Under the pieces are notes generated by a model. The model was given only the letters and a program-made list of their open reading frames with translations. It ran no database searches and was not told the DNA's origin. From Lathyrus oleraceus (Eukaryota > Streptophyta > Magnoliopsida > Fabales > Fabaceae), in the NCBI RefSeq assembly GCF_024323335.1, contig NC_066580.1, positions 144,078,188 through 144,142,187 on the forward strand: a stretch of 64,000 nt of DNA, written 5' to 3'. Both the position numbers and the translations under genes were made by a program. This document shows, piece after piece, positions 24,496 to 61,771 of this stretch. Every line of letters begins with the position of its first letter. Within the stretch, counting starts at the first letter, position 1.

Positions 24496-24627
24496 TAAAT
24501 CGATGGTACTTTTGTTTGATTTAAAATTTTATAAAAGAGTATCCTTATGATCATGATTATCTAAATCGATGGTACTTTTGTTTGATTTTAAAATTTATAA
24601 AAAAGTATCCCTATGATCATGATTATC
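24496..24627. repeat. 66-bp tandem duplication
   Basis: Two copies, 24496-24561 and 24562-24627, both start 'taaatcgatggtac' and end 'gatcatgattatc'. They differ at only a few positions. They begin within the 'ggcgactccg' terminus region of the adjacent LTR. Confidence 0.9.
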
Positions 24628-34900: not shown

Positions 34901-35290
<390 letters not shown>

Positions 35291-38705: not shown

Positions 38706-38853
38706 AGAAAGTCATTAGTAATTGAAACTGTAGCAACCCATATATATATCTAGAATAATATCATACAAGTGTTATTAATTGGTACTGATACAACATAAGT
38801 GTCTAATGGCATCATTATATACATGTGTCCAACTTAAAACATCAATGGGACAT

Positions 38854-40631: not shown

Positions 40632-42671
40632 TGTAACACCCTTCTAAAATACCCCAAATATTTAATTAAAATAACAATATCTCAATCAGAGTAAATATGC
40701 AATTAAGGGTGTCACACAATCATTTCACACCATTCACCATAATAACTGTCATGCTCTTTTATTATCAATTAAAACATAAAGCATTATACGCAGCGGATAG
40801 AAATCAAATCAATCATGCAAAACATGTAACACATTACATGTAAAATTATTCAACAAGGTAAAACATCCCGTCCCGATGTTACATCTATCAGAGCATGACC
40901 CACTAGGGAACTACACTAGACTCCAAGCACTAGCTCCTACTCAATCACTGCTCGTTACCTGAAAAATAGTTGTAAGGGTGAGTTCCTCAATCGATATAAT
41001 AAGCATTATAAAATATCATGTAATGCTAAGTAAATAACACATTAATCACCCTAATCATATTACACATTCAGTAACGGCACATCAACTCAAATATCATACT
41101 CAATACCAACATAAATTCATACTCATACTCAATGCCAACACAAACACACACATAATATTGGAATACATCCATTCATATTATACGCCATACATACATTATG
41201 CAATGAGACTCCATGCATGCGGTACCGACTATTCGTGAACATATAGTTCACCTCACCGATCAAATCCAGATACGGCTACCAAGCCCACTAGTCCCACTCA
41301 TTTGAGACCTAGTGACTCACTCACTAATTCCTCACCACGGGAATTAGCTACCACCAACTCACTAGTTCCTCACCACGGGAATTAGCTACCACCCCAAGGG
41401 CTATGCTATGCACGCTAATCACCTAGCATGCAAACATCAACAACAATCCACAATGATTTACTCACTAATTCCTCACCATGGGAATTAGCTACCACCATAA
41501 AGGCCACAATATGCATGCTAAATCACCTAGCAATGCAAAATCATCAACAATAATCCACAATGGACATATGCTCACACTCTAAGCCATAAACAGTCCATTC
41601 ACAATTGCATTCATAACATATACATTCACATCATTATGCATACCATCATACATTCATCAACACATGTATCATATCATGTCAAATAATTAATCACAGTATT
41701 AGCACACTCCACTAATACCTATACTGCTCAAAACAGCGGGAATTAATCCCTATTACATCACACGCCAATATAGGCCAATCACCAATTATGCACACATTAT
41801 TCAAATATTAATTTTTCCAATTTCCAACAGTGTTAACCGGTTAACGCCCTGGGTTAACCGGTTAACGCATCACAAAACACGCTTTCTGGCAAAACTCAAC
41901 AGTGTTAACCGATTAACGCCCTGGGTTAACCGGTTAACGCAGACAGAACAGCAATATTTTCACAACTCACAACAGTGTTAACCGGTTAACGCCCTGGGTT
42001 AACCGGTTAACGCAAGCAAAATAGCAATACCTCACAATTCCTAACAGTGTTAACCGGTTAACACCCTGGGTTAACCGGTTAACGCAAGACAGAAAGCTGT
42101 TCCTGCGCTAACACGAAGCAGAATGCAGAATTCTCCGCATTTTCCGCCGTTGGAGGACTTCCGGACCTCCGATTCCGATTCCGTAAAAAGCTATACGTTC
42201 GGGAAATCACTACCCATCCAATTACAGATTCAATTACGGCTTTAACACAACTTATCCAACACAATTTTTCAGCATTCAACATCCCAATTAGGGTCAATTC
42301 ACGGTTTATCACTACCCATTACATGTTAACCCATAATACCCATTAAACGACGATAAACCCCCCTTACCTGAGTTAATCTGGCGAATCTTTAAGCTTCAAG
42401 CTTTTCCGTTCTTCAACCCTTGCTCTCTTGCTCTTCCTCTTTGCCCTTTTCCTCTTTTCAGCCGCTTCTCTGCTTTCACGTGAAAACTCTTTTTACCAAA
42501 ATGGAACCCTTTTTCCTTATTTCCAACTTATATATATATTTTCCAATAATTATTATTCCAGTAATAATAATAATAATAATAATCCAATAATTCCAATTAT
42601 TTAATTAAATTAATAAATATAATATTAACTTAAATTAAATAATTATCTTATTTTTTTATCGGGGTGTTACA
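40632..42671 (-). repeat. 3' LTR of chromovirus
   Basis: Read on the plus strand it runs TGTAACACCC to GGTGTTACA. It contains eight GTTAACCGGTTAAC-type palindromes (41832-42083), a triplicated 'attcctcaccacgggaattagctaccacc' motif (in part) at 41,316-41,495, and a TAA/AAT microsatellite at about 42,558-42,585. The 77-codon frame at 42079-42312 recurs in the other LTR and is not a gene. Confidence 0.95.
41832..42083. repeat. Array of GTTAACCGGTTAAC palindromes (3' LTR)
   Basis: Four blocks each hold two copies of the 14-base perfect palindrome separated by 'gccctgg' or 'accctgg'. Each block is preceded by 'aacagt'. One of the eight copies has a single change (ACCGATT). Confidence 0.95.
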
Positions 42672-42686
42672 ACTCTCCCCCACTAA
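42672..42686 (-). other. Polypurine tract of chromovirus
   Basis: The minus strand reads TTAGTGGGGGAGAGT directly before the 3' LTR start. It is the primer for plus-strand DNA synthesis. Confidence 0.85.
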
Positions 42687-42761
42687 AAGAGTTTTCGTCC
42701 TCGAAAACATGCCTCAAGCGAATAACTCTGGTTAAGACTCCTTCATCTGACTCTCAAGTTC

Positions 42762-45700
42762 CTAAGTCACATTGCCACCTGCTGGTCCTCCCCAAGCTAC
42801 CTTCACCAAGGCAATCTCTTTACCCCACAACTGCTTCAACTCTCGATCCTCGATCCTCATAGGTGATGTTTCAACAGTCAGGTTATCTCTCACCTGTACA
42901 TCATCTACTTGGACTACATGCGACGGATCATGAATGTACCTCCTCAACTGAGACACATGAAAAACCTCATGCAAATTCGCAAGCGACGGCGGTAAAGCGA
43001 TACGATAGGCTACTTCCCCTATCCTCTCCAAAATCTGATAAGGACCAATAAATCGAGGTGTCAACTTCTTCGACTTCAAAGCTCGACCAACTCCCGTTAT
43101 CGGAGTAACACGGAGAAACACATGATCCCCCTCTTGAAACTCAAGTGACTTCCTTCTCTTGTCGTGATAACTCTTCTGACGACTCTGAGCAATTCTCATC
43201 TTCTCTTGAATCATCTTAATCTTTTCCGTAGTTTGTTGAACAATCTCCGGTCCAACCACAACACTCTCACCGGACTCATACCAACATAAAGGTGTCCGAC
43301 ATCTCCTACCATACAAAGCTTCAAACGGTGCCATACCAATGCTCGAATGAAAACTATTGTTGTAGGTAAACTCAATCAAAGGTAAATAACAATCCCAAGC
43401 ACCTCCCTTTTCCAAAACACAAGCCCTCAAAAGATCCTCTAGTGACTGAATCGTCCTTTCAGTCTGACCATCAGTCTGCGGATGATATGCAGAACTCAAT
43501 CTCAGCTTAGTTCCCAAAGCCCTTTGCAAACCTTCCCAGAACTTCGATGTAAATCTAGGATCTCTGTCCGAAACAATACTAGACGGAATACCATGCAAAC
43601 TTACAATCTTCTCAATATACAACTCGGCTAATCTCTCTAATGGATAATCCATTCTGATCGGAATAAAATGAGCCGACTTTGTCAATCTGTCAACAATCAC
43701 CCAAATAGCTTCAAAATTCTTAATCGTCCTCGGTAAACCAGAAACAAAATCCATACTGATACTATCCCACTTCCACTCTGGAATAGCCAACGGTTGCATT
43801 AGCCCGGACGGCTTCTGATGCTCAATCTTTGACTTCTGACAAGTCAAACAAGAATAAACAAAACTCGCAATTTCTCTTTTCATTCCCGGCCACCAAAATA
43901 ACTTTTTCAAATCAAGATACATCTTTGTAGCTCCAGGATGAATACTCAGGCCACTACGATGTCCTTCCTCAAGAATACTCTTCTTAAGTTCGGTAACGTC
44001 CGGAATACACACCCGATTACCAAATTTCAAAACACCATTCTCATCAACTCTGAATTCACCACCTTGACCTTGATTCACTAGAGTCAACTTATCAACCAAA
44101 AGCACATCGGATTTCTGACCCTCTCTAATCTCATCCAGAATACTACTCGTTAACTTCAACATTCCCAATTTAACACTATTATGAGTACTCTCACACACCA
44201 AACTCAAGTCTCTAAACTGCTCAATTAAATCCAATTCCTTAACCATTAACATAGACATGTGCAATGATTTCCGACTCAATGCATCAGCCACTACGTTTGC
44301 TTTACCCGGATGGTAATTCAAACCAAAGTCATAATCCTTCAGAAACTCTAACCATCTCCTCTGTCTCATATTCAGCTCTTTCTGATCAAACAAATACTTT
44401 AAACTTTTATGGTCACTGAAAACCTCAAATCTTGACCCATACAAGTAATGCCTCCATAACTTCAGAACAAATACCACGGCTGCCAACTCTAAATCGTGTG
44501 TCGGATAGTTCCTCTCATGAACCCTCAGTTGTTTCGAAGCATAAGCTATAACCTGCTTAATCTGCATCAACACACCACCCAAACCCAACAATGAAGCATC
44601 ACAGTAAACCTCAAATGATTCCGACGAACTCGGTAATATCAGAATAGGAGCAGTAGTTAACCTTCTCTTTAACTCTTGGAAACCTTCTTCACATTTTGAG
44701 TCCCAAACAAACGCTTGCCCCTTTCTAGTCAACATCGTCAACGGTAACGCCAACTTAGAAAATCCCTCAATGAATTTCCTATAATAACCTGCAAGTCCAA
44801 GAAAACTCCTTATCTCCGAAACTGACTTCGGAGCTTCCCACTTAGATACCGCTTCTATCTTAGAAGGATCAACAGCAATACCACCTCTTGAAACCACATG
44901 ACCAAGAAAACTAACCTCTTCTAACCAAAATTCACACTTAGACAGTTTAGCAAATAACTTCTTTTCTCGTAAAACTCCTAAAACCACTCTCAAATGCTCA
45001 GCATGCTCTTCTTCAGATTTCGAATACACCAAAATATCGTCAATAAACACCACAACAAACTGATCTAGGTACGGATGGAAAATCCTATTCATATACTCCA
45101 TAAACACTCCAGGCGCATTAGTCACACCAAAAGGCATTACAGAATACTCATAATGTCCATACCTTGTTCTGAAAGCAGTCTTCTGAATATCCTCAGTTTT
45201 CACACGTATCTGATGATACCCCGATCTCAAATCTATCTTACTGAACACGCTCGCACCAACCAACTGATCCATCAAATCATCAATCCTCGGCAAAGGATAC
45301 CGATTCTTGATCGTCACTTTATTCAGTTGCCTGTAGTCCACACACAACCTCATAGTACCTTCTTTCTTCTTAACCAATAACACTGGTGCACCCCACGGTG
45401 ACACACTCGGACGAATAAATTCCTTATCCAACAGATCTTCCAGCTGACTCTTCAATTCAGCTAACTCAACAGCAGACATACGGTACGGAGCCATCGATAT
45501 CGGCCTAGTACCAGGTACCAAATCAATCGAGAACTCAACTTCACGCTCTGGCGGTAATTCATTCACTTCTTCAGGAAACACATCAGGAAAATCACACACC
45601 ACAGCTAGATCGCAATTCACCAGTTTATCTTTAGCCTCCAAAGTTGCTAATAGCATAAACAACTCTGCCCCATCTGCTATTGCCTCATTCACCTGCCTCG

Positions 45701-47084
45701 CTGATAGAAACAAATCCTTTCCTTCCTCAATCTCAGGAAAGATCACAGTCTTATCAAAACAGTTGATATAAACTCGGTTACACACCAACCAGTTCATACC
45801 CAGGATAACATCAATCTGCACTAGTGGAAGACACACGAGGTCCATTCCAAAGTCTCTACCAAAAATACTCAAAGGACAATTTAAACAAACTGAAGTAGTA
45901 GTCACTGAACCCTTCGCAGGAGTATCAATCACCATACTTCCAAGCATCTCAGATATCTCTAATTTAAGTTTCACAGCACAATCCAAAGATATAAAGGAAT
46001 GAGTCGCACCTGTGTCAATAATAGCTACAAGAGGAAAGCCATTAATATAACACGTACCTCGGATCAAACGATCATCTGCAAAAGTCTCAGAACCCGATAA
46101 AGCAAAGACCTTGCCTCCCGACTGGTTCTCTCTCTTCGGCTTAGGACACTGTGGGCTAATATGACCCAACTCTCCACAGTTGAAACAAGTCACAGTCTTC
46201 GACCGACACTCTGCAGCCAAATGACCACCTTTTCCACACTTGAAACACTTCCTCTCAGCACTGGTACACTCATGGACACGATGTCCAGCCTGACCACATC
46301 TGTAACACTTAGCAGGGGCACTAGAGTCTCCCCCACTAGGCCTCTTCATCCCACTCTGTCTCTGGAAACCTTTGCCAGCTGCATACGGTTTCCCACGATC
46401 ATTCTGATTCTTGCCTTTCCTATCAACCCTCTGCTGATAGCTCTTCGCTCTGGCCTTGGTATCCTGTTCAAAGATCCTGCAACAGTCAACCAAATCAGAA
46501 AACACTCTAATCCGCTGATACCCAATAGCCTGCTTGATCTCGGGACGTAACCCGTTCTCAAACTTCACACATTTTGAAAATTCCCCAGTAGCCTCATCAT
46601 AGGGAGTGTAATACTTCGACAGCTCTGTGAACTTAGCAGCATACTCAGTAACAGACCGGTTGCCCTGCTTCAATTCCAAGAACTCTATCTCTTTCTTTCC
46701 TCTGACATCCTCTGGAAAGTACTTCCTCAGGAATCTCTCTCTAAACACAACCCAAGTGATCTCAGCATTCCCAGCAGATTCCAACTCAGTGCGGGTAGCA
46801 ACCCACCAATCATCTGCTTCTTGTGACAGCATATGCGTACCGAACCTGACATTCTGGTTATCAGCACACTCAGTCACTCGGAAGATTCTCTCGATCTCCT
46901 TCAACCACTTCTGAGCACCATCTGGATCGTATGCTCCCTTGAACATTGGAGGATTGTTCTTCTGGAACTCACTCAGTTGACGAGCAGCTCCCATTCCCAC
47001 AACATTCGGATTTCCTCCAAGTACTCCAGCTAGCATACCCAGAGCCTCAGCAATCGCAGCATCATCTCTACCTCTTCCAGCCAT
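42762..47084 (-). CDS. Chromovirus gag-pol polyprotein, 1,440 aa
   Basis: The start is taken at ATG 47,084 ([15 protein letters not shown]); the frame is open 19 codons further but without an ATG there. Domains in order, by position: gag with W-rich core (about 46,950-46,600), three CCHC knuckles ([42 protein letters not shown]; 46,311-46,147), protease DTGATHSF (about 46,015), and reverse transcriptase from about 45,500 with FIDD at about 45,045. RNase H follows (YCDAS, about 44,605), then integrase HHCC finger (about 43,960-43,835), catalytic D, D and E in SMDFVSG, SDRDPRF and TERTIQS (about 43,750, 43,565, 43,460), GPY/F motif (about 43,035) and a chromodomain-like tail. It stops at TAG 42762-42764, where the family has tryptophan; the native end would be at 42,732, about ten codons on. 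Otherwise it looks functional: it makes particle protein and enzymes for copying and inserting the element. Confidence 0.93.
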
Positions 47085-47190
47085 CTCTATTCTGAAAACC
47101 CAACAAGCTAAACAATAAGTACTGATAGGGTTACACAACACCTATCACGTACAGGGGAACAGAATAATTACGACTTGACTCGACTGACTA

Positions 47191-47203
47191 TGCTCTGATA
47201 CCA
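47191..47203 (-). other. Primer-binding site (initiator Met tRNA)
   Basis: The minus strand reads TGGTATCAGAGCA, four bases inside the 5' LTR. It is the classic site complementary to the 3' end of initiator tRNA-Met. Confidence 0.93.
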
Positions 47204-47207
47204 CTAA

Positions 47208-49249
47208 TGTAACACCCTTCTAAAATACCCCAAATATTTAATTAAAATAACAATATCTCAATCAGAGTAAATATGCAATTAAGGGTGTCACACAATCATT
47301 TCACACCATTCACCATAATAACTGTCATGCTCTTTTATTATCAATTAAAACATAAAGCATTATACGCAGCGGATAGAAATCAAATCAATCATGCAAAACA
47401 TGTAACACATTACATGTAAAATTATTCAACAAGGTAAAACATCCCGTCCCGATGTTACATCTATCAGAGCATGACCCACTAAGGAACTACACTAGACTCC
47501 AAGCACTAGCTCCTACTCAATCACTGCTCGTTACCTGAAAAATAGTTGTAAGGGTGAGTTCCTCAATCGATATAATAAGCATTATAAAATATCATGTAAT
47601 GCTAAGTAAATAACACATTAATCACCCTAATCATATTACACATTCAGTAACGGCACATCAACTCAAATATCATACTCAATACCAACATAAATTCATACTC
47701 ATACTCAATGCCAACACAAACACACGCATAATATTGGAATACATCCATTCATATTATACGCCATACATACATTATGCAATGAGACTCCATGCATGCGGTA
47801 CCGACTATTCGTGAATATATAGTTCACCTCATCGATCAAATCCAGATACGGCTACCAAGCCCACTAGTCCCACTCATTTGAGACCTAGTGACTCACTCAC
47901 TAATTCCTCACCACGGGAATTAGCTACCACCAACTCACTAGTTCCTCACCACGGGAATTAGCTACCACCCCAAGGGCTATGCTATGCACGCTAATCACGT
48001 AGCATGCAAACATCAACAACAATCCACAATGATTTACTCACTAATTCCTCACCATGGGAATTAGCTACCACCATAAAGGCCACAATATGCATGCTAAATC
48101 ACCTAGCAATGCAAAATCATCAACAATAATCCACAATGGACATATGCTCACACTCTAAGCCATAAACAGTCCATTCACAATTGCATTCATAACATATACA
48201 TTCACATCATTATGCATACCATCATACATTCATCAACACATGTATCATATCATGTCAAATAATTAATCACAGTATTAGCACACTCCACTAATACCTATAC
48301 TGCTCAAAACAGCGGGAATTAATCCCTATTACATCACACGCCAATATAGGCCAATCACCAATTATGCCCACATTATTCAAATATTAATTTTTCCAATTTC
48401 CAACAGTGTTAACCGGTTAACGCCCTGGGTTAACCGGTTAACGCATCACAGAACACGCTTTCTGGCAAAACTCAACAGTGTTAACCGGTTAACGCCCTGG
48501 GTTAACCGATTAACGCAGACAGAACAGCAATATTTTCACAACTCACAACAGTGTTAACCGGTTAACGCCCTGGGTTAACCGGTTAACGCAAGCAAAACAG
48601 CAATACCTCACAATTCCTAACAGTGTTAACCGGTTAACACCCTGGGTTAACCGGTTAACGCAAGACAGAAAGCTGTTCCTGCGCTAACACGAAGCAGAAT
48701 GCAGAATTCTCCGCATTTTCCGCCGTTGGAGGACATCCGGACCTCCGATTCCGATTCCGTAAAAAGCTATACGTTCGGGAAATCACTACCCATCCAATTA
48801 CAGATTCAATTACGGCTTTAACACAACTTATCCAACACAATTTTTCAGCATTCAACATCCCAATTAGGGTCAATTCACGGTTTATCACTACCCATTATAT
48901 GTTAACCCATAATACCCATTAAACGACGATAAACCCCCCTTACCTGAGTTAATCCGGCGAATCTTTAAGCTTCAAGCTTTTCCGTTCTTCAACCCTTGCT
49001 CTCTTGCTCTTCCTCTTTGCCCTTTTCCTCTTTTCAGCCGCTTCTCTGCTTTCACGTGAAAACTCTTTTTACCAAAATGGAACCCTTTTTCCTTATTTCC
49101 AACTTATATATATATATTTTCCAATAATTATTATTCCAGTAATAATAATAATAATAATAATCCAATAATTCCAATTATTTAATTAAATTAATAAATATAA
49201 TATTAACTTAAATTAAATAATTATCTTATTTTTTTATCGGGGTGTTACA
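47208..49249 (-). repeat. 5' LTR of chromovirus
   Basis: It is nearly identical to the copy at 40,632-42,671. Differences that I can see are scattered single substitutions and a 2-base change in the TA run near 49,107. It contains the same palindrome array at 48409-48659. On the minus strand it holds the promoter for the polyprotein. Confidence 0.95.
48409..48659. repeat. Array of GTTAACCGGTTAAC palindromes (5' LTR)
   Basis: Same four-block array as in the other LTR. Here a different one of the eight palindromes carries the ACCGATT change, so the two arrays have mutated independently since insertion. Confidence 0.95.
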
Positions 49250-49684
49250 ATTAATGCAAGCATCATACATGTGAAAAAGCAATCAAATGCAATCAAATGC
49301 AGGCCCAAGGGAGTTAAATCAAATACACAATGCAACAAGGTACAAATTGCAACAAGAAAAAGCAAAATTCGGGCACATGTGCAAATGCGATTTGAGAGAG
49401 CTTCTAGAACAAGTATAGAAAGGAAGGCTGATCCTGCTGAGTTTGATTCTGTCTTTAACAGAAGCAGCCATACGATTTCTTTTGAAAGTCCATACCATAG
49501 ATACCAGTAGATAGATCATCAATGTGCCCCTGAATTCCAAAACCAAAGCACGATCATTTGTCTCATCATATGAAGCCAAGGCTGCGGCTGTAGAAATTGA
49601 AAGTCGTCTGCATTTTGGATCAAAACTCAGTAAAATCATCAAGAAGAAAAAGCTTACCTTCGTCAGCTAGCAGAAATTGAGGCA

Positions 49685-49753
49685 ATGACGGCATCAAAGA
49701 GAGTGATTCCAAGGGAAGAGTGGGAGAGGAAGCTGAATAACGTCAAGATACAG
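49685..49753 (+). pseudogene. GID8-like (LisH/CTLH protein) first-exon fragment
   Basis: An ATG opens MTASKRVIPREEWERKLNNV followed by KIQ, and then CAG/GTGAAG looks like an exon end with a splice donor. Plant GID8 homologues (a subunit of the CTLH/GID ubiquitin ligase) begin 'M..SK.VITREEWEKKLN.VKIRKED'. The match covers 23 codons and stops where that gene's first exon would plausibly end. The frame then runs 18 codons of unrelated sequence to a stop. The upstream stretch (49,520-49,684) and downstream frame (49,783-50,052, starting SVQPLSLNIMPNGLDCTVNE) look coding-like but I cannot name them. Short match, so moderate confidence. Confidence 0.5.
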
Positions 49754-50440
49754 GTGAAGAAAGCCTGCACACTAACGAGCCTATGTCTGTTCAACCGCTT
49801 TCATTGAACATCATGCCAAATGGTCTTGATTGCACTGTAAATGAAATAAATGTTACTCCCAGTGATAATGTAGCAATACCCCAGGAATTTGTAAACTCAT
49901 CTATTGAGTCTGGTGCTGATGTACAATACGGAAGGGCTGCAAATGAACTTACTCACAACCAGAATGCGCCAGTTATACCATTGGTTTGCGATGGAACATT
50001 TAAAGTTGCTTTCCAAGACCTGCATAACGAAAAAAAACGTAACAGTCATTGAATGAAGAAGCTTTTGCTCCAAATCTCACTGCAGTAAAACACAAAATAA
50101 TTACCAAGTGTTAAAATTCAGAAAAATATCCCAAAATGGAATGAAGACAAAATTCAAAGAGAAAGTGTAGGTCTGTTTACCTTTTTTCGAATTTAACAAT
50201 AAACAAGGCAATCCAAATTTGAGGATCACGAAAGGAGTTTGTAGGGACGCCCCTTCTGGGTCACCAGAGACCAAATCAAAAACCCTAAAGCTGATAGATA
50301 AATAGACAAGAAAGGAATTAGTGAGGGAGGCGATTGAAAGAAGGAGAAATTAACGGCGAAAAGATTTCAAAGAGCAAAACCCTAAATCCCAAATCAAAAA
50401 GCCAGTATTGGAAGAGAGGAGGAGGAAGATTTAAGGTCAC

Positions 50441-50760
50441 CTGATTCGTCATCGCCAAAGGTGAGATTCCCGCTTGATGTCTCTTTGAAACCGTGGATTT
50501 ACGCCCTTTGTGTTTAACGTTGTTGAGCATCTGGTTTGAGTGAGCAAGGATGAGCGATTTTGAGATCGAGAGAGGTTTGGAGTTCGTGAGATTGTAAGAG
50601 ACGAGTTTGTGAGAGGAGTTCGTGAGGGTGTGAGAGAGATGGGTGAGCGGTGATGAGCGATTTTGAGAGCAGAGAGAGATTTCGTTTGAGAGAGTTTTGA
50701 GGTAGAGAGATTCTGGGTTTGAGATTTGGGAAGAGGACGATGAAGTCTGTTACACTATTT
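50441..50760 (-). pseudogene. Unidentified gene 5' end: leader and first exon fragment
   Basis: On the minus strand 50,760-50,531 is CT-rich with repeated 'ctctct' and 'ctcac' runs, typical of a plant 5' leader. It is followed by ATG at 50,530 and 30 codons (MLNNVKHKGRKSTVSKRHQA, then GISPLAMTNQ) ending CAG/GTGACC, a good splice donor at 50,440. I do not recognise the protein. It is opposite in strand to the neighbouring GID8-like and poly(A)-binding-protein pieces. Confidence 0.35.
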
Positions 50761-51039
50761 CATTTTTCTTTCTTTAATTTATTTTAAAAACAGAATAAGT
50801 TTTTTGAAACCTTTAAATTTTTTTGTTTAAACTTCCTAAGTTTAGTTAATAAATATTTCTCTATTTTCAATTCCTATTCTGTTGAAGAACCCAACAGCCA
50901 GGCGGCTGGGTTTTAATTTTTGGTTCCTCCATCATTTATTAGGGTAGTCCAGCAGATTTCTTCTTTTATTAGTTTTAATTCTTTTTTATATTTATCTTGG
51001 TTTATATATCTGAATTAGCATTAAAGTAATAACTAGTCA

Positions 51040-51125
51040 TAGGTGGTCTGGTGGAGAGGGGTGGTTTCTAAGGTCTTTAGTGGAGTGGGTTCAATACTCA
51101 TGTATAGCATTCTATTTCTTTTGGC
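51040..51125 (+). repeat. Possible tRNA-derived SINE head
   Basis: 'ggtggtctggtgga' resembles a polymerase III box A, and 'gtgggttcaatactc' about 50 bases later resembles box B (GGTTCRANNC). A T-rich tail follows. It is weak, with no target duplication identified. Confidence 0.25.
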
Positions 51126-51437
51126 ATTTTTTTTTATGTTTATGTTTTATTATAATTTCTCTTATGCTTATAGTTTCATTGTTGTTTAGTAACACAAATT
51201 TGTTTTCTTTTAATTTCATCATCCATTCAAAACCGCTTTAAACTATAAAAAAATCATTTTTCTCGATTCAATATCGAGCCCATTTTCATACCCTTGTAAG
51301 TCGATTGCTTTTAAGCATCGCCATCAACCTCACATGGCTTACTCTTGGGCCTTCTTACAATGAGCTCTTAAGCAACATCAACTTAACTTTCAATAATTTC
51401 AAACCTCGGTACTTTAATTGTTTTAATTTAATATTCA

Positions 51438-51985
51438 AATCATTTTCTAAATAAAACGTGAAGAAAAAGGTTACCTGGATGGAATGTCCAGTCGTAATCC
51501 CGAATATTAGGCTCAAGCTGTAAGAGCTTGCAAGCCATAAATATTCGTCTTCTCTTTAACACTCCAATATTCAAAATCATTTTCTTAATAAAGTTGGAAG
51601 AAAAAGGTTACCTGGATGGAATGTCCAATCGTAATCCCGAATATTAGGCTCAAGCTGTAAGAGCTTGCAAGCCATAAATATTCGTTTTCTCTCCAAAACA
51701 CCTGTAAATATCTCAAACCATCTTCTTAATAAAGTTGGAAGAAAAAGATTACCTGGAGGGAATATCCAGTTGTAATCCCGAATATTAGGCTCAAGCTGTA
51801 AGAGCTTGCAAGCCATAAATATTCGTCTTCCCTCCAAAACATTCATAAATATTCGAATCATTTTCTTAGCAATATTGGAAAGAAACAGACTGCCTGGGTG
51901 GAATGTCCAGACGTAGTCCCGAGTATTAGACCCAAGCTGTAAGAGCTTGTAGGTCACAAGTACTCGTCTTTCAAACTTCAAAAAT
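51438..51985. repeat. Four tandem ~139-bp units with 47-nt hairpins
   Basis: Units start at about 51,469, 51,606, 51,747 and 51,888 (spacing 137, 141, 141), each beginning '(g)gttacctgg-tggaatgtcca'. Each contains a 47-nt inverted repeat at 51501-51547, 51638-51684, 51779-51825 and 51920-51966. The outer stem is CGAATATT/AATATTCG, the middle stem GGCT/AGCC, the inner stem CAAGCT/AGCTTG and the loop GTAAG. The fourth copy changes both sides of the stem together. The 134-codon minus-strand frame here is a by-product of the repeat. Confidence 0.95.
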
Positions 51986-52849
51986 ACTTAATTCCTACCT
52001 TAATACTTTTTCAATAAAGATGGAAATGGAACATGGTGTATACCGTGCACTCCTGAGACTAGGATTCGAGATGTATATCTCGCTCATCCAAGTCCTCGCC
52101 ATCACTCAAAATACATCCAACCAATCAAACTCTTTTCTCGCCGCCGTGCGACTAACAAAAAAAAAAACTTTTTTCATAAACGAAAGATATATTGTCTTAA
52201 GGTGATACAAAACAATGTTTCGGCCACAATTGTTGAGTCGAGATAAGTGACGCTTTTCCGAATGTAGATTTATAAATCCGTTCGATGTGTGGTATGCGTC
52301 CACTCCTCATCTGTTTTGGGTAAAACAATGTTTTCGTCGACTAATACAGTATGACTTTCGCTAAAATCGACCAACAAACAAACATTTTTCTACCCAGAAC
52401 TACGTAAGCCTTGATTTCTCTTTTGAGATACGTAGGAGCAGGATTCGTAAATCTTGTCAGGCCCACTAATAAAAAACTTAGGTTTAGTCCTTCGTCAAAA
52501 ATCCAAAAATATTCTTCTCTCTTATATTCTTTCTTTTCCCACCTAATAAACTGAAAAGCCTAACATTTCAAACTAACATTAACACACACAACTGACCTAA
52601 TGGTTCCCGTTGAGTACAACGGACGTGAGGGGTGCTAATACCTTCCCCTTGCGTAATCGACTCCCGAACCCTGATTTGGTTGCGATGACCATATCTTATC
52701 CTTTCTTTTGTCTTGGGTTTTATCGATATTTCCCCTTTCCTTTTTAGGAATAAATAAAGTTCGGTGGCGACTCTGTTCAGTCCATCATTGCAAGCGTGCG
52801 ATTGCGCTTCGCTTTGAAGTCGTATCCCCATTTTTCGAGGTACGACAGA

Positions 52850-52867
52850 TGGCGACTCTGCTGGGGA
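52850..52867 (+). other. Ogre primer-binding site (tRNA-Arg type)
   Basis: TGGCGACTCTGCTGGGGA begins two bases after the LTR end. It is the site described for Ogre elements as complementary to the 3' end of an arginine tRNA. Confidence 0.85.
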
Positions 52868-53090
52868 ACAGGAACATCCCTAAGTGAGTCAAGCCTAGTT
52901 AGGTCGTTTGTGTGCCTTTGTTTGTTTACCTATGTGGCTTTTCTCTATTGTTTTTACTATCTCTATTGTCATATTGATATGAATCTGTTGTATTGGTTCG
53001 ATTATGGTGCGGTACTTGGATACTCTGATTGCAAACCTTGTGGGAAAGACTTTTTACCCGAGTCTCGAGTAAAAATATAAGATAGGACGA

Positions 53091-53430
53091 GGTTGAGTAG
53101 TACGGGTCCGCGAGATGTATTTCTCGTTGGGTCGGTATGAGAACCTTACTTAGAGTAGATTCTTGAGAGGATGTTGTCGCTCGGCAAGTAAGTTGCCGTA
53201 AGCTTCGACATTTTCTTTAGGATCCATGACTCTGAGAACCATTTGTAGAACCTTAGTTCTTTTCCCAACTAGGAAAGATGGTTGCGTAGTGTGGGTCTAC
53301 GAGATGTATTTCTCGTTGGATCGATGCGAGAACCTCAATTAGAGTAGATTCTTTAGATGGAGTTGATGCCCGGCAAGTAAGTTGCCGCAGGTAGCAAACA
53401 GTCTAATGGATCCATGACTCTAGGAACTTT
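53091..53430 (+). repeat. Ogre leader, 189-bp duplication with hairpins
   Basis: Two units with a period of 189 share 'cgagatgtatttctcgttgg', 'agagtagattctt' and 'ggatccatgactct'. Each has a perfect hairpin CGGCAA-GTAAG-TTGCCG at 53182-53198 and 53371-53387. The loop and its flank (AAGTAAGT) match a splice donor. A good acceptor (TTATTTGTTTCAG) ends at 53,602, 18 bases before ORF1. The units lie between the primer site and ORF1, where packaging signals would be expected. Confidence 0.85.
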
Positions 53431-53619
53431 TTCAAAAAAAAACCTTAGACCATACCTGGTGAGAACCATGTTCCATACAAAGCAATCAGACTTATCCATG
53501 CCTCAAGCCTATTGAACCTATACAAAAAAAAATGCATTACATTCATACATTGCATCAACATCATAAAAAAGCAAGCTCTTAGCTGTCTCTTATTTGTTTC
53601 AGGAATTGAGAACTTGAAA

Positions 53620-55596
53620 ATGACAACTTCAACGAGACACACTTTCACACTTAAGTACAAGGAACCTAAGTTGGACAGTCTGAAGGATTTGATCTCTGAT
53701 TTGTCTCTCAGCAGACGTGATGAGTTCGGAAAAAACTATGGGAAAATTTTGAGCCTGCTAAATAAGAAAGTTGACTATGGAATCATCGGCTCTCTGGCAC
53801 AACATTATGATCCACCTCTGCGTTGTTTCACATTCGCTGATTTCCAGCTAGCTCCTACTTTGGAAGAAGTTGAGAGGATCGTGGGCCTCAAATTGAAAGA
53901 TTTTAATCCATTTCCAAAGCTCGAAGAAGATATGGGCCCAAAGAAGATAGCTTCGGCCCTAAGTATCAATGTCCCGACTGTTCGAGACAATTGGGCTGAA
54001 AAAGGGGGTTGCAAAGGTTTTGCCGCGATGTTTTTGGAGGATTTAGCTCTAAGGTTCAAGAAAAGTGGAAATTGGAATGCATTCTATGCTGTGGTGGCTT
54101 TATTGATCCATGGGATTGTGCTATTCCCAAATGTTGAAAAATTTGTGGATCAAGTGGCCATAGAAGTTTTTCTCTCTGGCAATCCAGTACCATTTCTCTT
54201 AGCTGACGTTTACTATGCCCTTCACGCTCGACATAAAAAGAGGGGTGGAGTGTTGTTGTGTTGTGCTCCGTTGCTTTACACTTGGTTCATGCAACACATG
54301 CCCGAAGAAGGTCCTTTTGTGGCAAAAGAACTTAAGTTTCCTCAGAAATTAGCCTCTCTCACCGCAAGTTCCATCAGATGGTATATTCGAGAGTGGGAAA
54401 CCCCAGACATTATAGTCATTTGTGGGGAATTTCCTAATGTACCGTTGTTGGGCACCAAGGGTTGCATCAACTATAACCCTATGTTATCTCGATTACAACA
54501 CGGGTACTCCATGGATGGTCCTCCTGACGCAAAGGACTTACAGCCATTTGTGCTCTCTGACATCCAAGCCAGCAATCCTGATGTAAGAGCAGTACGAAAG
54601 GCTTGGTTAAAGGTTGTAAGAAAAGGTAAAGAGTTTGGAAAAAGAAACATTCTTGCCAAAGAACCTTACACGCAATGGGTGAAAGAAAGAGTTGAGAAAA
54701 TCCAGTTGCCATTTATCTTAAAGGCTCCAGCTTTTCCTAAAACTCCTGAGCCCGAGCCCATACTCCTTGAGGACATGGAGAAACTCGCTACTAAGGTTAA
54801 GGAGCTCGAAGTGGAGAATGCTGAATTACGAATTCAGATGAACCGAGTTATCTTGGAAAATCAGAATTTGAAAGAGGAACGTAAGGGAAAAGCCCAAGAA
54901 CTTAAGGATAGCAACAAGAGAGCTAGGCTATTGGAAGACCAGAAAGATGATCTTGATCATATCCTATTAGGTTCCACATCAGTGATCCGAACCAGGAAGG
55001 AAGAGCTCAAGAAAGCTGAGTATAGGATCCGTGAGTTAGGGAGACTGTTGGATAAATCTCTTATGGATAAAAAAGAAATTAAGCTTGACTTTGAGGCACA
55101 AATCCGTGACTTGAGGGACGCTCTAAAGAAATGCGAGGAAAAGTTGTCTCGCGAGATCCTCCAAAAGAAAGAAGCTGAAAGAAACTGTCACCATCTCAGG
55201 TACCAGTTGGAAGAAGCTACTAGGAGGTTTGCAGTTTTTGAGAGCCAAGAAGGTGATGCAGCCTACTTACTCCTAAAGAATGATTGTGTGTACTGGAAGA
55301 GGTTGTATAGAGAGGCTAGAGCAACCCTAGATGAAGATCAAAAGGTCATCCAGAAACTCCAAGAGCTCTATGTTGAATGGAATGGCAAGTTCCGCAACTT
55401 GGCTAGGTTTGTTAACCTCAATATGTTGGAACTCCAAGAAAAACTCCAGGAAGCGGACTGGTGTATGTGTCCAGAAAACACACCTCCTCAAGTTTTCAAT
55501 TTCGTCAAGTTTATCAAGAAAATGATGAATGAGCTCACCACAGATCTGGCTACGATCATAAGAGCTGAGACAGAACTTAAGTTTACTTGTACTTGA
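53620..55596 (+). CDS. Ogre ORF1 protein, 658 aa
   Basis: The start is chosen at ATG 53,620 (MTTSTRHTFTLKYKEP), directly after a splice-acceptor-like TTTCAG; the frame is open 36 codons further upstream, through leader sequence. The N-terminal half (residues about 15-370) has LAQHYDPPLRCFTFADFQLA, PTLEEVERIVGL, WNAFYAVVALLIHGIVLFPN and KRGGVLLCCAPLLYTWF. These resemble the plant mobile domain and related domains of the extra ORFs of Ogre elements. The C-terminal part (about 385-600) is a long charged coiled coil (ELEVENAELRIQMNRVILEN, and so on). The function is not established; it is absent from most Ty3/gypsy lineages and could bind RNA or protein in the particle. It has no frameshift or stop. 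It is followed 310 bases later by gag. Confidence 0.85.
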   Translation: MTTSTRHTFTLKYKEPKLDSLKDLISDLSLSRRDEFGKNYGKILSLLNKKVDYGIIGSLAQHYDPPLRCFTFADFQLAPTLEEVERIVGLKLKDFNPFPKLEEDMGPKKIASALSINVPTVRDNWAEKGGCKGFAAMFLEDLALRFKKSGNWNAFYAVVALLIHGIVLFPNVEKFVDQVAIEVFLSGNPVPFLLADVYYALHARHKKRGGVLLCCAPLLYTWFMQHMPEEGPFVAKELKFPQKLASLTASSIRWYIREWETPDIIVICGEFPNVPLLGTKGCINYNPMLSRLQHGYSMDGPPDAKDLQPFVLSDIQASNPDVRAVRKAWLKVVRKGKEFGKRNILAKEPYTQWVKERVEKIQLPFILKAPAFPKTPEPEPILLEDMEKLATKVKELEVENAELRIQMNRVILENQNLKEERKGKAQELKDSNKRARLLEDQKDDLDHILLGSTSVIRTRKEELKKAEYRIRELGRLLDKSLMDKKEIKLDFEAQIRDLRDALKKCEEKLSREILQKKEAERNCHHLRYQLEEATRRFAVFESQEGDAAYLLLKNDCVYWKRLYREARATLDEDQKVIQKLQELYVEWNGKFRNLARFVNLNMLELQEKLQEADWCMCPENTPPQVFNFVKFIKKMMNELTTDLATIIRAETELKFTCT

Positions 55597-55906
55597 ATTT
55601 GAATTGTTGGTGTTTAAATCTTTTGTATTCGAATCATGTGTACTTGAAGTTAAATCCTTTTGTATTCGAATTTGATTTTGATTAATGGAAGTTGTCATTT
55701 TGGGTCTCAATTATTACATGTTGTTCTTATATTCTAACATTGCTGGAATAAATAATAAAGATAACTAAGAGTTTTGCAAACAAGATGCATCCATACATGC
55801 ATTCATACATTTTCAAAAAACAGAGTCTCATTCTGTCCTTTCTTCCTCCAGTTTCACGTTGAATTTTCAACACCAGTATAATACTCGTGCCAGAGCTCAT
55901 CAAAGA

Positions 55907-58900
55907 ATGCCAGATCAAGAGCATGAATTGGAGCGAGTGAGCTCAGAGCTCGAAGACCTACGTGGAAACATGGGTCAGGTCATGGAGATATTACAGGTCA
56001 TCAGGGCAAAGTTAGACACCCAAACGACGGTTGTTTCAGAAATCGTCGGCCCATCGATTGAACCCCAACCTGCAAGGACGGTACCAACAACATGGCCAAC
56101 CTATGGTTTACCTCCCGGTTTCACGCCTACGGTGGAAGGCGCCCCTGGTTTTGCACCATCCGCTCAGCAGACTACTCCTCTACCGACCATCAATGAAAAT
56201 CATCCAGTGGTTCACACGTTCGCACCTCCTCTCGTTCGTGCACATGTGCAACCCTACTTTGAGGATCAACAACATGCTCCGGACTTTTCAGACGAAGATG
56301 AGGAAAGACAGGAAGACATAAGAGGGATGAAGGAGAATTACCAGATGCTTGAGAAGAGATTGAGGGCTATGGAAGGGGACCAAGTTTTTGGTGCTACTGC
56401 TAAGGAGATGTGCTTGGTGTCGGGTCTTGTGATTCCTGCGAAGTTCAAGACCCCATATTTCGATAGGTATGAGGGTCACTCGTGTCCTAAGAGTCACCTT
56501 ATTATGTATTATCGAAAAATGGTTGCGCATGTAGAGGATGACAAGCTTATGATACATTGCTTCCAGGACAGCTTGAGGGGTGCTCCCTCCAAGTGGTACT
56601 TAAGCCTTGATCAAAGCAGGATTCGTTGCTTCCAGGACTTATCTGATGCCTTCATCCAACATTACAAGTATAACATGGATATGGCCCCAGATAGGAGACA
56701 ACTGCTCAGCATGTCCCAGAAAGACAAGGAGTCTTTTAAGGAATACGCGCAACGATGGAGGGAAGTGGCCTCGCAAGTCGAACCACCTCTGGCTGAGAAG
56801 GAGTTAGCAGATTGGTTCATGGATACAGTCAAACCTGTGTTCTATGAAAGAATGGTGAGTAGTGTATCTGCGAGCTTCTCTGATCTGGTCGTCGTGGGCA
56901 TAAAGGTCGAGTTGGGATTGAAGAATGGAAAGATGGTGACTACCTCTGAAACATCTGGTAGTAATGCCAAAAAGTTTCCTGGAGGGTTTCAAAGAAAGAA
57001 GGATGGTGATACAAATGCAATGTCAACCAGTCAAAGGAGGAGTCATTCATGGAAGAAACAACACCCATTTGCTCAACAACAACCGATTTATCCAGTACAA
57101 TATGTTCAACAACCATATGTGGCAGCAGTCACACCAAATTTTAACCAATCACAAGCTCATGTTTATCAACCCGCTCAACAAGTGCATATATACCAGCAAG
57201 CGCCAGCGCCACCTGCTTATCAACAGCCGAGGGCACAGGCTCCTCGTCCACAAAATCTTCAAAATCAAAATAGGGTACAGAGAGGTAGACTTCCGTTTGC
57301 TTCAATACCTATGACATACACTGAATTGTACCCATCATTACTACAGAAAGGGTTAGTGACGCCCAGATCTTTGGGTCCTCCACCAAATCCTTTACCTCCA
57401 TGGTACAATCCAGATGCCCATTGTCCTTTCCATGGGGGTGCCCCTGGACATGATTTAGAAGGATGTTATGCTTTAAAGCATATTGTGCGAGACCTGGTTG
57501 AGAAGAAGATTCTTTCGTTTCGAGACGTCGGACCCAACGTCAAAAGCAACCCTTTGCCAGCACATGGTGATGTTAATGCCGTCGAGGATGCTTCTGATGT
57601 GTGTACAATCAAAAACGTGGAAGATGTTAAAACTCCGTTGCTAGCGCTTCATGCAGGATTGGTGAGGGCTAGATTGATTGACGCATGTCACGATAGCTGT
57701 GAGGAATGTGCCATTCAGCCGAAAGGATGTAAAGTGGTACGAAATGACATTCAGAATTTGATGAATCAAGGTGTTTTACAAATTTCTGGTCCAACAATAA
57801 ATGAGGAAGTTTCGGTCATTGAACCTGTTTTTAACATACCAGAACCGTTTGAGGTGACTTATCACAGAAGAGACGTTGTTCATCCGTCACCCGTGGTAGT
57901 TTGCATGCCTACCCCATTTCCTTTTGAGAGCACCAAGGCGGTACCCTGGAAGTACGACATAACAGTGGTAGATGGAAAGCCCAAAATTGCTGAAAGTAAG
58001 GAAGTGATGGAGAATGTTGACACCGACATCACCAATATCGCAGGGACAAGCAGGATGACCCGCAGTGGTCGGATTTATACTCCCAATTTTAATATGAACC
58101 CTCAAGAGCCAACAAGGAGAGCTGCAAATGTAAATCCTACCCCAGAACAGGGAGGGGCACAGCCGGCTGTGCAAACAGATGAAGCAAGTGAGTTCCTAAG
58201 GATAATAAAGAAATCTGACTACAAGATAGTTGATCAGTTACATCAAACACCATCAAAAATATCTATCTTGTCGTTGCTTCTGAATTCCGAAGCTCATAGG
58301 GAGGCTCTGCTGAAAGTGCTTGCTCAGGCTCATGTTACCCAAGATATAACGGTCGGCCAATTCGATGGAGTGGTCGCCAATATCACAGCCTACAACACTC
58401 TAAGCTTCAGCAATGAAGAGTTACCCAAGGAGGGGAAGAATCACAACCGCGCTTTGCATGTATCCATAAAGTGCCAAGAAGATGCTCTGGCCAGAGTTTT
58501 AGTTGACACTGGATCATCCCTCAATGTCCTACCAAAGAGGGCACTTGCTAAATTGTCTTACCAAGGTTCGGAGTTGAAACCTAGTGCGCTTGTGGTGAAA
58601 GCATTTGATGGCTCTCGAAGGACAGTAGTTGGGGAGGTAGAGCTACCAATACAGATCGGACCGCATGTATTCCCCATCAATTTCCAAGTCATGGACATAA
58701 ATCCAGCTTATAGCTGCCTTTTGGGACGTCCATGGATACATGCTGCTGGGGCAGTAACTTCTACTCTGCATCAAAAGATGAAGTTCGTTGTCGATAACAA
58801 GCTCGTCATTATCTCAGGTGAAGAAGATTTTATCATCAGTCAACTCTCCTCTTTCCGTTATATTGAGGCCGATGAGGATGCCTTAGAAACCTCTTTTCAA

Positions 58901-59296
58901 GCACTTGAAATATCCAATGCCACACTTGAAGAAGTTAAGGATCCTGTTGAGAAAACCAGTTTGTCATTCGCCTCTTTGAAGAGTGCAAAATCAACAATTG
59001 AAAGTGGAGGCCCTGCAGGTTGGGGACAAGTCATCAACGTCAATGAGAAAAATGACCGTTTTGGTTTGGGGTACAAGTCTTCTGCTAATGGAGGAGCCCT
59101 GATACCTGCAAAGGACCGTGTGCGGAGCATACAAGAGGTTTTCCTGAGCAAAGGATTTATCCATGGAGATCAAGTTGGTGCAGTGGAAGATGACACTGAA
59201 GATGGAGAAACATCAAATCTGATATACCGGTGTGAAGCAGCCCTGACAAATTGGGAAGCAGTTGAGATTCCAGAAGTTTTTCCTGTGTCAAAGTAA
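55907..59296 (+). CDS. Ogre gag-protease, 1,129 aa (exon 1 of gag-pro-pol)
   Basis: The start is ATG 55,907 (MPDQEHELERVSSELEDL); the frame is open 16 codons upstream without ATG. Domains: N-terminal coiled coil (1-50); proline-rich region; gag core (about 150-330) with WYLSLDQSRIRCFQDLSDAF and ESFKEYAQRWRE; Q/P-rich linker (380-450); a CHHC knuckle CPFHGGAPGHDLEGC (506-520); aspartic protease with DTGSS at 867-871 and LLGRPWIHAAGAV; and a G-patch-like GWGQ...GLGY near 1035-1055, typical of Ogre. A stop (TAA 59,294-59,296) overlaps the proposed intron donor AAA/GTAATT at 59,293. Splicing would join the frame to reverse transcriptase, so unspliced RNA makes gag-protease and spliced RNA makes the polyprotein. 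It is intact. Confidence 0.9.
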   Translation: MPDQEHELERVSSELEDLRGNMGQVMEILQVIRAKLDTQTTVVSEIVGPSIEPQPARTVPTTWPTYGLPPGFTPTVEGAPGFAPSAQQTTPLPTINENHPVVHTFAPPLVRAHVQPYFEDQQHAPDFSDEDEERQEDIRGMKENYQMLEKRLRAMEGDQVFGATAKEMCLVSGLVIPAKFKTPYFDRYEGHSCPKSHLIMYYRKMVAHVEDDKLMIHCFQDSLRGAPSKWYLSLDQSRIRCFQDLSDAFIQHYKYNMDMAPDRRQLLSMSQKDKESFKEYAQRWREVASQVEPPLAEKELADWFMDTVKPVFYERMVSSVSASFSDLVVVGIKVELGLKNGKMVTTSETSGSNAKKFPGGFQRKKDGDTNAMSTSQRRSHSWKKQHPFAQQQPIYPVQYVQQPYVAAVTPNFNQSQAHVYQPAQQVHIYQQAPAPPAYQQPRAQAPRPQNLQNQNRVQRGRLPFASIPMTYTELYPSLLQKGLVTPRSLGPPPNPLPPWYNPDAHCPFHGGAPGHDLEGCYALKHIVRDLVEKKILSFRDVGPNVKSNPLPAHGDVNAVEDASDVCTIKNVEDVKTPLLALHAGLVRARLIDACHDSCEECAIQPKGCKVVRNDIQNLMNQGVLQISGPTINEEVSVIEPVFNIPEPFEVTYHRRDVVHPSPVVVCMPTPFPFESTKAVPWKYDITVVDGKPKIAESKEVMENVDTDITNIAGTSRMTRSGRIYTPNFNMNPQEPTRRAANVNPTPEQGGAQPAVQTDEASEFLRIIKKSDYKIVDQLHQTPSKISILSLLLNSEAHREALLKVLAQAHVTQDITVGQFDGVVANITAYNTLSFSNEELPKEGKNHNRALHVSIKCQEDALARVLVDTGSSLNVLPKRALAKLSYQGSELKPSALVVKAFDGSRRTVVGEVELPIQIGPHVFPINFQVMDINPAYSCLLGRPWIHAAGAVTSTLHQKMKFVVDNKLVIISGEEDFIISQLSSFRYIEADEDALETSFQALEISNATLEEVKDPVEKTSLSFASLKSAKSTIESGGPAGWGQVINVNEKNDRFGLGYKSSANGGALIPAKDRVRSIQEVFLSKGFIHGDQVGAVEDDTEDGETSNLIYRCEAALTNWEAVEIPEVFPVSK

Positions 59297-59553
59297 TTGT
59301 TGTTTTCCTTTGTGTTTTTGAAAATCCTTAGCTCTGCCCAAGGCTAATGGATCATTTGTAGGGCCCCTTTTGAATTTCAAAAAAAATCATTATGACAAAT
59401 AAAGAGCATCTTGTTCAAACTCTTGTTGTTCATTTACTTTGTTTTTCTTTCTTTAAAATGGCAACCCTTTCAAAAACTACAAAAATATTTTTTATTTTCT
59501 TTTGCTTTTTATTTCCATTTTACTAAAAAAAACCATCATTAAAAAACATGCAG
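59293..59553 (+). other. Ogre intron between protease and reverse transcriptase
   Basis: The donor is GTAATTG at 59,293 and the acceptor ACATGCAG ends at 59,553. The 261 bases between are T-rich with several stops. Joining 59,292 to 59,554 keeps the frame (SK, then IINKPVEFDDP). An intron at this place is an established Ogre feature; the exact sites are my reading. Confidence 0.7.
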
Positions 59554-61771
59554 AATAATCAATAAACCAGTTGAATTCGATGACCCCACTACTTCTTATA
59601 ATTTTGAACTCCCCATCTACCAAGCGGAAGAGGATAGTGAGGAAGATTGTGATTTCCCTGAAGAATTAGAAAGGATGCTAGAGCACAAGTCAAAGGCCCT
59701 TCAGCCGCATCAAGAACCAGTGGAAACAATCAACCTTGGCACCGAGGAAGACAAGAAAGAGGTCAAAGTTGGGACTACACTTGAGGCAAGCATCAAAGAA
59801 AGATTGATCAAGTTGCTACATGAATATGTAGATGTATTTGCTTGGTCGTATCAGGATATGCCAGGTTTAGATACTAATATTGTGGTCCATAAGCTACCGT
59901 TACAGCCAGATTGTCCACCAGTAAAGCAGAAGCTCCGAAGAGCGAGACCCGACATGGCTCTAAAGATTTGTGACGAGGTGAAACGTCAATTTGATGCCGG
60001 TTTTCTAGCAGTTGCAAAGTACCCTCAATGGGTAGCTAACATAGTACCTGTACCCAAAAAGGATGGCAAAGTCAGGATGTGTGTTGATTATAGGGATTTA
60101 AACAAAGCAAGTCCGAAAGATGATTTCCCCCTGCCACATATTGACACTCTGGTAGACAACACTGCTAAGTTCGCAGTCTTCTCCTTAATGGACGGATTCT
60201 CAGGTTATAATCAAATCAAGATGGCTCCAGATGACATGGAGAAGACCACTTTTATTACCCCTTGGGGCATATTTTGCTACAAGGTGATGCCTTTCGGTCT
60301 CAAAAATGCCGGGGCAACTTACCAAAGAGCTACGGTCACTCTTTTCCATGATATGATGCACAAGGAGATAGAGGTCTATGTTGACGACATGATCGCTAAA
60401 TCTCAGAATGAAGAGGATCATATGAGCCATCTGAAGAAGTTGTTTGAACGCCTCAGAAAGTTTAGATTACGATTAAACCCTGCAAAATGCACATTCGGTG
60501 TCCGTTCAGGGAAGTTGCTTGGTTTCATTGTTAGTCAACGAGGAATTGAGGTGGATCCCGACAAGGTCCGAGCTATACAAGAGATGCCTGCTCCACGCAC
60601 CGAACGAGAGGTTAGAGGCTTCCTGGGACGTTTGAACTATATCTCAAGGTTTATCTCACATATGACGGCCACATGTGAGCCTATCTTCAAATTGCTTCGA
60701 AAAGATCAAGCAGTCGAATGGAACTCTGACTGTCAAATGGATTTTGAGAAGATCGGACAATACCTGCAAGAGCCCCCTATTCTAATTCCACCTGTCCAGG
60801 GGAAACCACTCTTTATGTACTTAACTGTGCTTGAAAAATCAATGGGATGTGTGTTGGGACAACATGACGAAACCGGTCGAAAGGAACATGCTATCTATTA
60901 TCTGAGTAAGAGGTTTACCGATTGTGAATCCCGATATTCACTCTTAGAGAAAACTTGTTGCGCTTTAGCATGGGCCGCTCGTCGTCTAAGACAATACATG
61001 ATTTGCCACACTACTTTGTTGATCTCAAAAATGGATCCAATAAAGTATATCTTTGAAAAGCCTGCTTTAACTGGAAGACTCGCCCGTTGGCAGATGTTAC
61101 TATCCGATTATGACATCCAATATGTATCTCAGAAATCCATTAAAGGAAGTGTGTTGTCCGAGTACCTGGCAAACCAGCCTGTTGAAGACTACCAACCATT
61201 GAAGTTTGACTTCCCTGATGAAGACATTATGGTAGTAAAAGATTGTGAAATCCCAGGACTTGATGAAGGACCTGAACCCGGATCTCAGTGGAAGCTCATG
61301 TTCGATGGTTCCTCCAATTGCATGGGGCATGGCGTAGGAGCTGTCTTGTTGAATCCAAATGGTGGATACACTCCTTTCACAACAAGGTTGTGTTTTGATT
61401 GCACAAATAATATAGCAGAATACGAGGCGTGCATCCTAGGCATTGAAGCAGCAATTGATCTCCGAATCAAAACCCTCGAAGTATGTGGAGACTCAGCCTT
61501 GGTGATATACCAAGTCAAGGGTGAATGGGAAACTCGTGATACCAAGTTGATCCCATACCGTGCCTATGTCATGGAATTAATAAAATACTTTGACGAAATC
61601 ACTTTCCGTCATATCCCAAGAACTGAGAATCAAATTGCTGATGCTTTGGCTATGTTGGCTTCAATGTACCAAGTCAGATTCCATAATGAAGCACCTCTCA
61701 TTCAGATTGAGCGGAAAGTTGAGCCTGCCTACTGCCAGTTGGTTGAAGACGAAGACGATGGTAAACCCTAG
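59554..61771 (+). CDS. Ogre reverse transcriptase and RNase H region, ended by TAG
   Basis: The exon reads IINKPVEFDDP onward from the acceptor; the first ATG is at 59,675. Reverse transcriptase has PQWVANIVPVPKKDGKVRMC, FSLMDGFSGYNQI, the YVDD catalytic motif at 60378-60389 and LLGFIVSQRGIEVDP. The first RNase H region (YLTVLEKSMGCVLGQ ... YYLSKRFT) lacks the catalytic aspartate of the usual 'DAS' motif. A second, archaeal-type RNase H follows with intact residues in FDGSSN (about 61,300), NIAEYEACILGIEAA, GDSALV and NQIADALA. This dual arrangement defines the Tat lineage. The frame ends at TAG 61769-61771, where the sequence continues FHDIKCFLQ in frame; the codon was probably TGG. This nonsense codon cuts integrase off. 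Confidence 0.9.

Follow-up and report, generated by a model that had tools for sequence, protein, structure and literature searches.

An Ogre-type Ty3/gypsy retrotransposon of Lathyrus oleraceus carries inside its LTR a tandem array whose units fold computationally into three-way junctions of conserved layout, with a bias towards the sense strand and with hairpin loops that recur in the 5' leader of the element. Judged from sequence, these hairpins may be a repeated recognition site for an element-encoded RNA-binding protein, most likely with a role in packaging. We infer the protein, its binding and the packaging function, and put at about one in two the probability that tandem sense-RNA modules and leader hairpins, read by a protein of the element, mark genomic RNA for packaging or dimerisation.

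The window, meaning the whole stretch of 64,000 nucleotides that was analysed, spans 144078188-144142187 of its contig and contains the element on its + strand:

38849-38853, and again after the 3' LTR: target-site copy GACAT
38854-52847, + strand: 5' LTR, starting TGTCATACCCCG and ending CGACA, about 5.4 kb once the nested insertion is subtracted
40630-49255, - strand, ends approximate: nested Ty3-type element that splits the Ogre 5' LTR
about 40629-42672 and 47205-49250: LTRs of the nested Ty3-type element
52850-52867, + strand: primer-binding site TGGCGACTCTGCTGGGGA, starting two bases past the LTR end
53449-63016, + strand: whole block of Ogre reading frames
53449-55596, + strand: extra ORF with DUF7745 (E 3e-123), upstream of gag
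55769-59296, + strand: gag-protease
59543-61771, + strand: RT, RNase H and archaeal-type RNase H (RVT_3 after the RT-RNase H domains)
61772-63016, + strand: integrase (rve, in the ORF after the RT frame)

The 3' LTR, about 17 kb downstream of the 5' LTR, is 99.1% identical to it over 2913 bp, so the insertion is young. The 18-nt primer-binding site is of Ogre type, with 60,260 exact copies in the 3.8-Gb assembly and 0 for the reversed control; its tRNA is presumably that for arginine. The archaeal-type RNase H lies between RNase H and integrase, an extra ORF is present outside gag-pol, and the gag-protease and RT-RH frames are separated by a short gap, all of which are given as Ogre features in the available text of PMC6317226; the gap is 246 nt here (59296 to 59543), and the same source gives an average of about 274 bp between gag-protease and RT-RH-INT. 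The INT frame directly adjoins the RT frame, a stop separating the two. DUF7745 is a domain of unknown function, and the product of the extra ORF is a candidate partner of the hairpins.

Several further features of the window were recorded. Both LTRs of the nested element contain tandem 72-nt repeats with GTTAACCGGTTAAC palindromes (41818-42094 and 48394-48670). A second Ogre LTR end at 36612-37371, 74% identical to 52002-52847, bears a single module with a shortened P3 and is adjoined by a long AG dinucleotide tract (34904-35286), and a further decayed Ogre remnant at 24346-24496 retains 71% identity to the LTR end at 52609-52776. Upstream of the array, a segment with a CTCGATTCAATATCGAG hairpin (51262-51360) is matched in many Ogre LTR loci. 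A TATA-like sequence at 51243 was considered as a conserved promoter and rejected, as it is not conserved between LTRs, and the transcription start was not found.

The first-pass annotation had described four 47-nt hairpins in the LTR, with stems of 8, 4 and 6 bp and the loop GTAAG. All four are present, each as one arm (P3) of a larger module of 85-95 nt, in which an outer stem P1 is followed by a short A-rich linker and two hairpins, P2 and P3. The unit count, given as four, is in fact five, the last being diverged:

51460-51552, + strand: module 1, A-type, P3 at 51501-51547; MFE -32.9, z -5.5
51597-51691, + strand: module 2, A-type, P3 at 51638-51684; z -4.9
51737-51831, + strand: module 3, A-type, P3 at 51779-51825; z -6.2
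51878-51972, + strand: module 4, A-type with paired changes, P3 at 51920-51966; z -4.7
52019-52103, + strand: module 5, B-type, with GTAT as the loop of both P2 and P3; z -3.3

The unit is about 141 nt long, with spacings of 137, 141 and 141 nt. The junction of the window modules has a 4-nt A-rich linker after P1, 1 base between P2 and P3, and 0 bases between P3 and the closing strand of P1; the loops of P2 and P3 differ in the A-type modules. Module 5 keeps the layout of modules 1-4 with another sequence and other loops. Against 1000 dinucleotide shuffles per module, on which the z-scores are based, the observed energy was reached 0, 1, 0, 0 and 3 times for modules 1 to 5, and the spacer between modules 1 and 2 showed no fold in shuffle-controlled folding. 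A geometry filter applied to both strands of the window gave 10 matches, namely four of the five modules and six places elsewhere; the one it missed is module 2, whose P1 pairs in a shifted register. Rfam 15, ribozymes included, gave 0 matches at gathering score in 50000-54000 and, in 51400-53460, three far sub-threshold matches only (E 0.78-4.3), and ARAGORN with the bacterial code found no tRNA.

Copies 1-3 of the 47-nt hairpin are identical at all 47 nt, and copy 4 has three pairs altered on both sides and one G.T wobble, just as first described. Selection on the folded form had been argued from these paired changes, which are real; they occur, however, in the last A-type unit in 22 of 22 close copies (L001-L022, with 101 A-type units, 64 of them distinct, and 4 to 7 per LTR), and therefore represent one inherited event that counts once and not as repeated evidence. 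Moreover, after redundancy was reduced to 39 A-type rows, five of the eight rows of the copy-4 unit type (L063, L068, L071, L077, L078) have the middle stem GACC/AGTC; the innermost middle-stem pair is thus C.A in these rows, which lack one of the three compensations. What supports the fold independently comes from other unit classes and families, not from copy 4.

Among B-type units (95 distinct rows, with 9 dropped: L060, L069, L079 and the truncated type at 36.6 kb), a sequence-only alignment reduced to 69 rows at <97% identity was scored for 32 proposed pairs. Its cells comprise 1973 Watson-Crick, 88 G.U, 42 A.C and 104 other combinations, that is, 93.4% canonical, against 29-45% after sliding one arm by 1-4 positions. 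Both-sided changes were found at four pairs, and the eight slid versions score 0 (six times), 1 and 2. The covariation test that had been proposed was run on these units in a tree-aware form (G-test with APC against 100 tree-simulated alignments) and returned no pair at E<=0.05; we attribute this to the small number of clades, yet the result stands as negative. Diversity averages 0.13 in both stems and apical loops and 0.07 in the junction linker, compared with 0.23 at the remaining unpaired sites, and the flanks reach 0.34 and 0.42. The stems thus vary less than the flanks, contrary to the equal rates that had been named beforehand as a refutation.

The layout extends well beyond close relatives. 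A 32-nt motif near the LTR end has 5,310 matches in the genome (reversed control, 0), and the first 30 places listed (L054-L083), all within the first 33 Mb of one contig and representing fewer than 30 elements since some are LTR pairs or near neighbours, were scanned over 1,400 nt upstream for a P1 of five pairs enclosing two hairpins, with linkers <=8 nt and MFE <= -18. This loose scan gave 122 sense, 130 antisense and 24 shuffled matches; with linkers restricted to 3-5, 0-1 and 0-1 nt, 105 sense modules remained against 1 in shuffled sequence, and at least two modules were present in 28 of the 30 LTRs (zero in L063 and L082). Mirrored linkers recovered 44 antisense modules (shuffled, 2), and the sense linker filter retained 3 of the 130 antisense matches, which is an unfair test of polarity since the geometry is mirrored. 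The 41 non-redundant modules have a mean identity of 50% and fall into classes by loop:

Class A: P3 loop GTAAG, P2 loops different
Class B: GTAT in P2 and P3; also GAAT and GGAT
Class C: GTCT (L069, L079)
Class D: GTAC, GGAC, GAAC and others (L054, L056, L070)

RNAalifold on a sequence-only alignment of these 41 mixed modules gave almost no structure, which we attribute to misaligned stems, and a U5 motif search of viral contigs and of prokaryote genome contigs found nothing. The persistence of one layout across classes at about 50% identity and against shuffles, together with the conservation of stems relative to flanks, makes very improbable a neutral tandem array whose inverted repeats arose by chance and spread with the element, even though A-type copy number does vary from 4 to 7 among close copies and Ogre arrays can seed satellites, as the available part of PMC7004042 describes.

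A G.U pair on one strand is an A.C on the other. In a set of 74 distinct modules taken from scans of either strand, the sense z was the lower in 49, with means of -4.08 for sense and -3.51 for antisense (p 6e-5, over modules that are not independent of one another); by unit cluster the same held for 14 of 16 (p 0.011). Raw energy favours sense in 48 modules against 25 (p 9e-4), a bias that is weak by cluster (11/16, p 0.19). For the whole window array, z is -8.1 in sense and -6.6 in antisense, whereas raw energy is lower in antisense (-200.4 against -186.2 for sense).

In the 5' leader the sense fold is strong. Two tandem repeats follow the primer-binding site, each containing two hairpins:

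53085-53225, + strand: leader repeat 1; -56.8 sense, -32.7 antisense, z -5.4
53275-53415, + strand: leader repeat 2; -49.3 sense, -31.0 antisense, z -4.3
53111-53126, + strand: first copy of the hairpin with loop TGTATT (GTAT core)
53300-53315, + strand: second copy of the hairpin with loop TGTATT (GTAT core)
53182-53198, + strand: first copy of the GTAAG-loop hairpin, with TA bulged on the 3' side
53371-53387, + strand: second copy of the GTAAG-loop hairpin, with CA bulged on the 3' side

Such structured hairpins near the primer-binding site are a feature looked for in packaging signals. Across 28 five-prime loci (29 rows, the window copy being L001), the leader is more stable in sense than in antisense in 28 of 28, by 3.4 to 50.5 and on average 32 kcal/mol; control sense-antisense differences average 0.3 for 24 Ogre coding segments and -0.2 for 26 others, with extremes to -28. 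When composition was controlled by shuffling, sense z was lower in 10 of 10 leaders chosen from the 28, and the leader of L063 showed no structure (-0.1) in this folding.

The first-pass annotation had left the folded form as either RNA or a DNA cruciform. RNA fits better, because the sense strand is favoured, and a cruciform is disfavoured by the same strand bias, itself moderate in the array. Action at the DNA level, through a cruciform or templated quasi-palindrome repair at replication without selection on RNA, could draw on the 44 mirrored modules, by which the antisense strand folds too; the sense bias of the modules, the asymmetric bulges that are retained and not erased, and the sense-specific leader fold make it improbable.

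Array and leader are further linked by their loops. On stems of at least 5 bp, the GTAAG loop occurs six times on the + strand of the window, four times in the array and twice in the leader, and never on the - strand. Although their stems are not the same (CAAGCT and CGGCAA), each of the six hairpins has six pairs below the loop, then a 3' bulge of two nucleotides (YA) and 3-4 pairs beyond it. Both strands of 83 loci yield 22 distinct GTAAG hairpins with a 6-bp stem; CA or TA follows in 21, and 19 are compatible with a 2-nt bulge above three or more further pairs. Leaders of the B-only elements L067 and L081 carry GTAT, GAAT and GGAT, those of the C-type L069 and L079 carry GTCT, and that of the D-type L054 carries GTAC; among nine elements compared, array and leader loops match inside the blocks A/B, C and D, with one chance match across blocks (D against the window). 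Of 1000 shuffled leaders, 0 reached the match for the window, L067 and L081, 18 for L069, 32 for L079 and 8 for L054, the match resting on one hairpin each in L054, L069 and L079. A listed loop is common to array and leader in 19 of 28 loci. The nine misses are L063 and one family of eight (L029, L030, L034, L036, L038, L039, L043, L047), in which the leader loop is GAAT in 6/8 and the array P2 has GAAT in 7/8 rows on a 3-bp stem, below the criterion. L076 combines a B-only array with an A/B leader, and the leader of L021 is without GTAAG. These loop statistics concern related elements and tandem copies that are not independent, and correspond to about four independent classes.

Selection on the folded form is thus supported by the layout shared across families, the conservation of stems relative to flanks, the sense bias and the leader loops. 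A matching fold, often with matching loops, amid changing stems suggests recognition tags for the handling of the element's own RNA. A fold in sense RNA might also serve nuclear export or splice balance, as a constitutive-transport-like structure bound by a host factor, and only a subset of Ogre transcripts is reported to be spliced in the available text of PMC6317226. We regard this as unlikely, since it is not obvious why a conserved host factor should require loops that are specific to a class and change in concert between array and leader. The leader-shared loops are likewise unexplained if the fold acts in 3'-end formation by placing or hiding poly(A) signals. AATAAA does stand just ahead of modules 1, 2, 3 and 5 and varies little ahead of B-type units (diversity 0.077), but the fold persists in module 4 and in modules of types C and D, where AATAAA is not found there in each unit, and this role appears quite unlikely.

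Among the roles offered earlier, packaging or dimerisation fits best. In the packaging model, the array would be a series of tandem RNA modules in the sense Ogre transcript, each presenting, through P1, a 3-5-nt A-rich linker, P2 and P3, two hairpins with class-specific apical loops, and the tandem leader hairpins past the primer-binding site would present the same GTAAG loop and pyrimidine-A bulge. Gag or the extra ORF product may recognise these hairpins, so that many leader and LTR sites would mark genomic RNA for packaging or dimerisation, with repetition supplying more sites per genomic RNA. The Gag of the window copy has no CCHC knuckle, and recognition would therefore have to rely on a different RNA-binding surface or on the product of the extra ORF. 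A position of the array upstream of the transcription start, earlier proposed as an argument against the fold, does not serve as one: U3 is transcribed from the 3' LTR, and the array would be in genomic RNA whether it belongs to R or to U3. A rice element that we take to be related to Tat elements is relevant here. This related element has a 2-kb R region, according to the available text of PMC3485330, which makes a long R plausible. More tentatively, and with some doubt, the hairpins could form a two-place RNA address, a class-specific code set in the leader and multiplied in the LTR that co-evolves with a protein of the element and enables families sharing one nucleus to distinguish their genomic RNA from that of other families.

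To our knowledge, the packaging signals of plant Ty3/gypsy retrotransposons are poorly known. RNA phages such as MS2, in the descriptions available, similarly have many stem-loop copies with a common recognition motif per genome. The MS2 operator combines a loop and a bulge, which the Ogre hairpins resemble. Unlike the dispersed MS2 signals, they are tandem and lie in non-coding retrotransposon DNA, with a putative partner protein. GACG-tetraloop stem-loops have a role in packaging in alpha- and gammaretroviruses, as the available text of PMC516450 describes, and like them the Ogre leader has fixed-loop hairpins past the primer-binding site of a reverse-transcribing element. Unlike them, the Ogre hairpins have no GACG tetraloop, their loops being GTAAG, GTAT, GTCT or GTAC by class, and their motif is multiplied on three-way junctions in the LTR, with putative binding by a protein. 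Short tandem arrays of variable copy number are also described from Ogre 3' untranslated regions in the accessible part of PMC7004042; those lie downstream of coding and are called hypervariable, whereas the present array is inside the LTR and its fold is kept. Tandem arrays in non-coding regions of large elements are known (PMC6317226, available part), and PMC2206039, as far as its accessible text goes, deals with satellites. A literature search that covered few subscription papers found neither folded arrays in Ogre LTRs nor leader-shared loops.

The Ogre retrotransposon is very abundant in legumes. If the hairpins are recognition sites, plant Ty3/gypsy retrotransposons would have in them a defined RNA code acting in cis, which would explain in part the great length of the LTRs and their variable arrays, and it would be directly testable whether the protein of a family binds that family's loop and no other.
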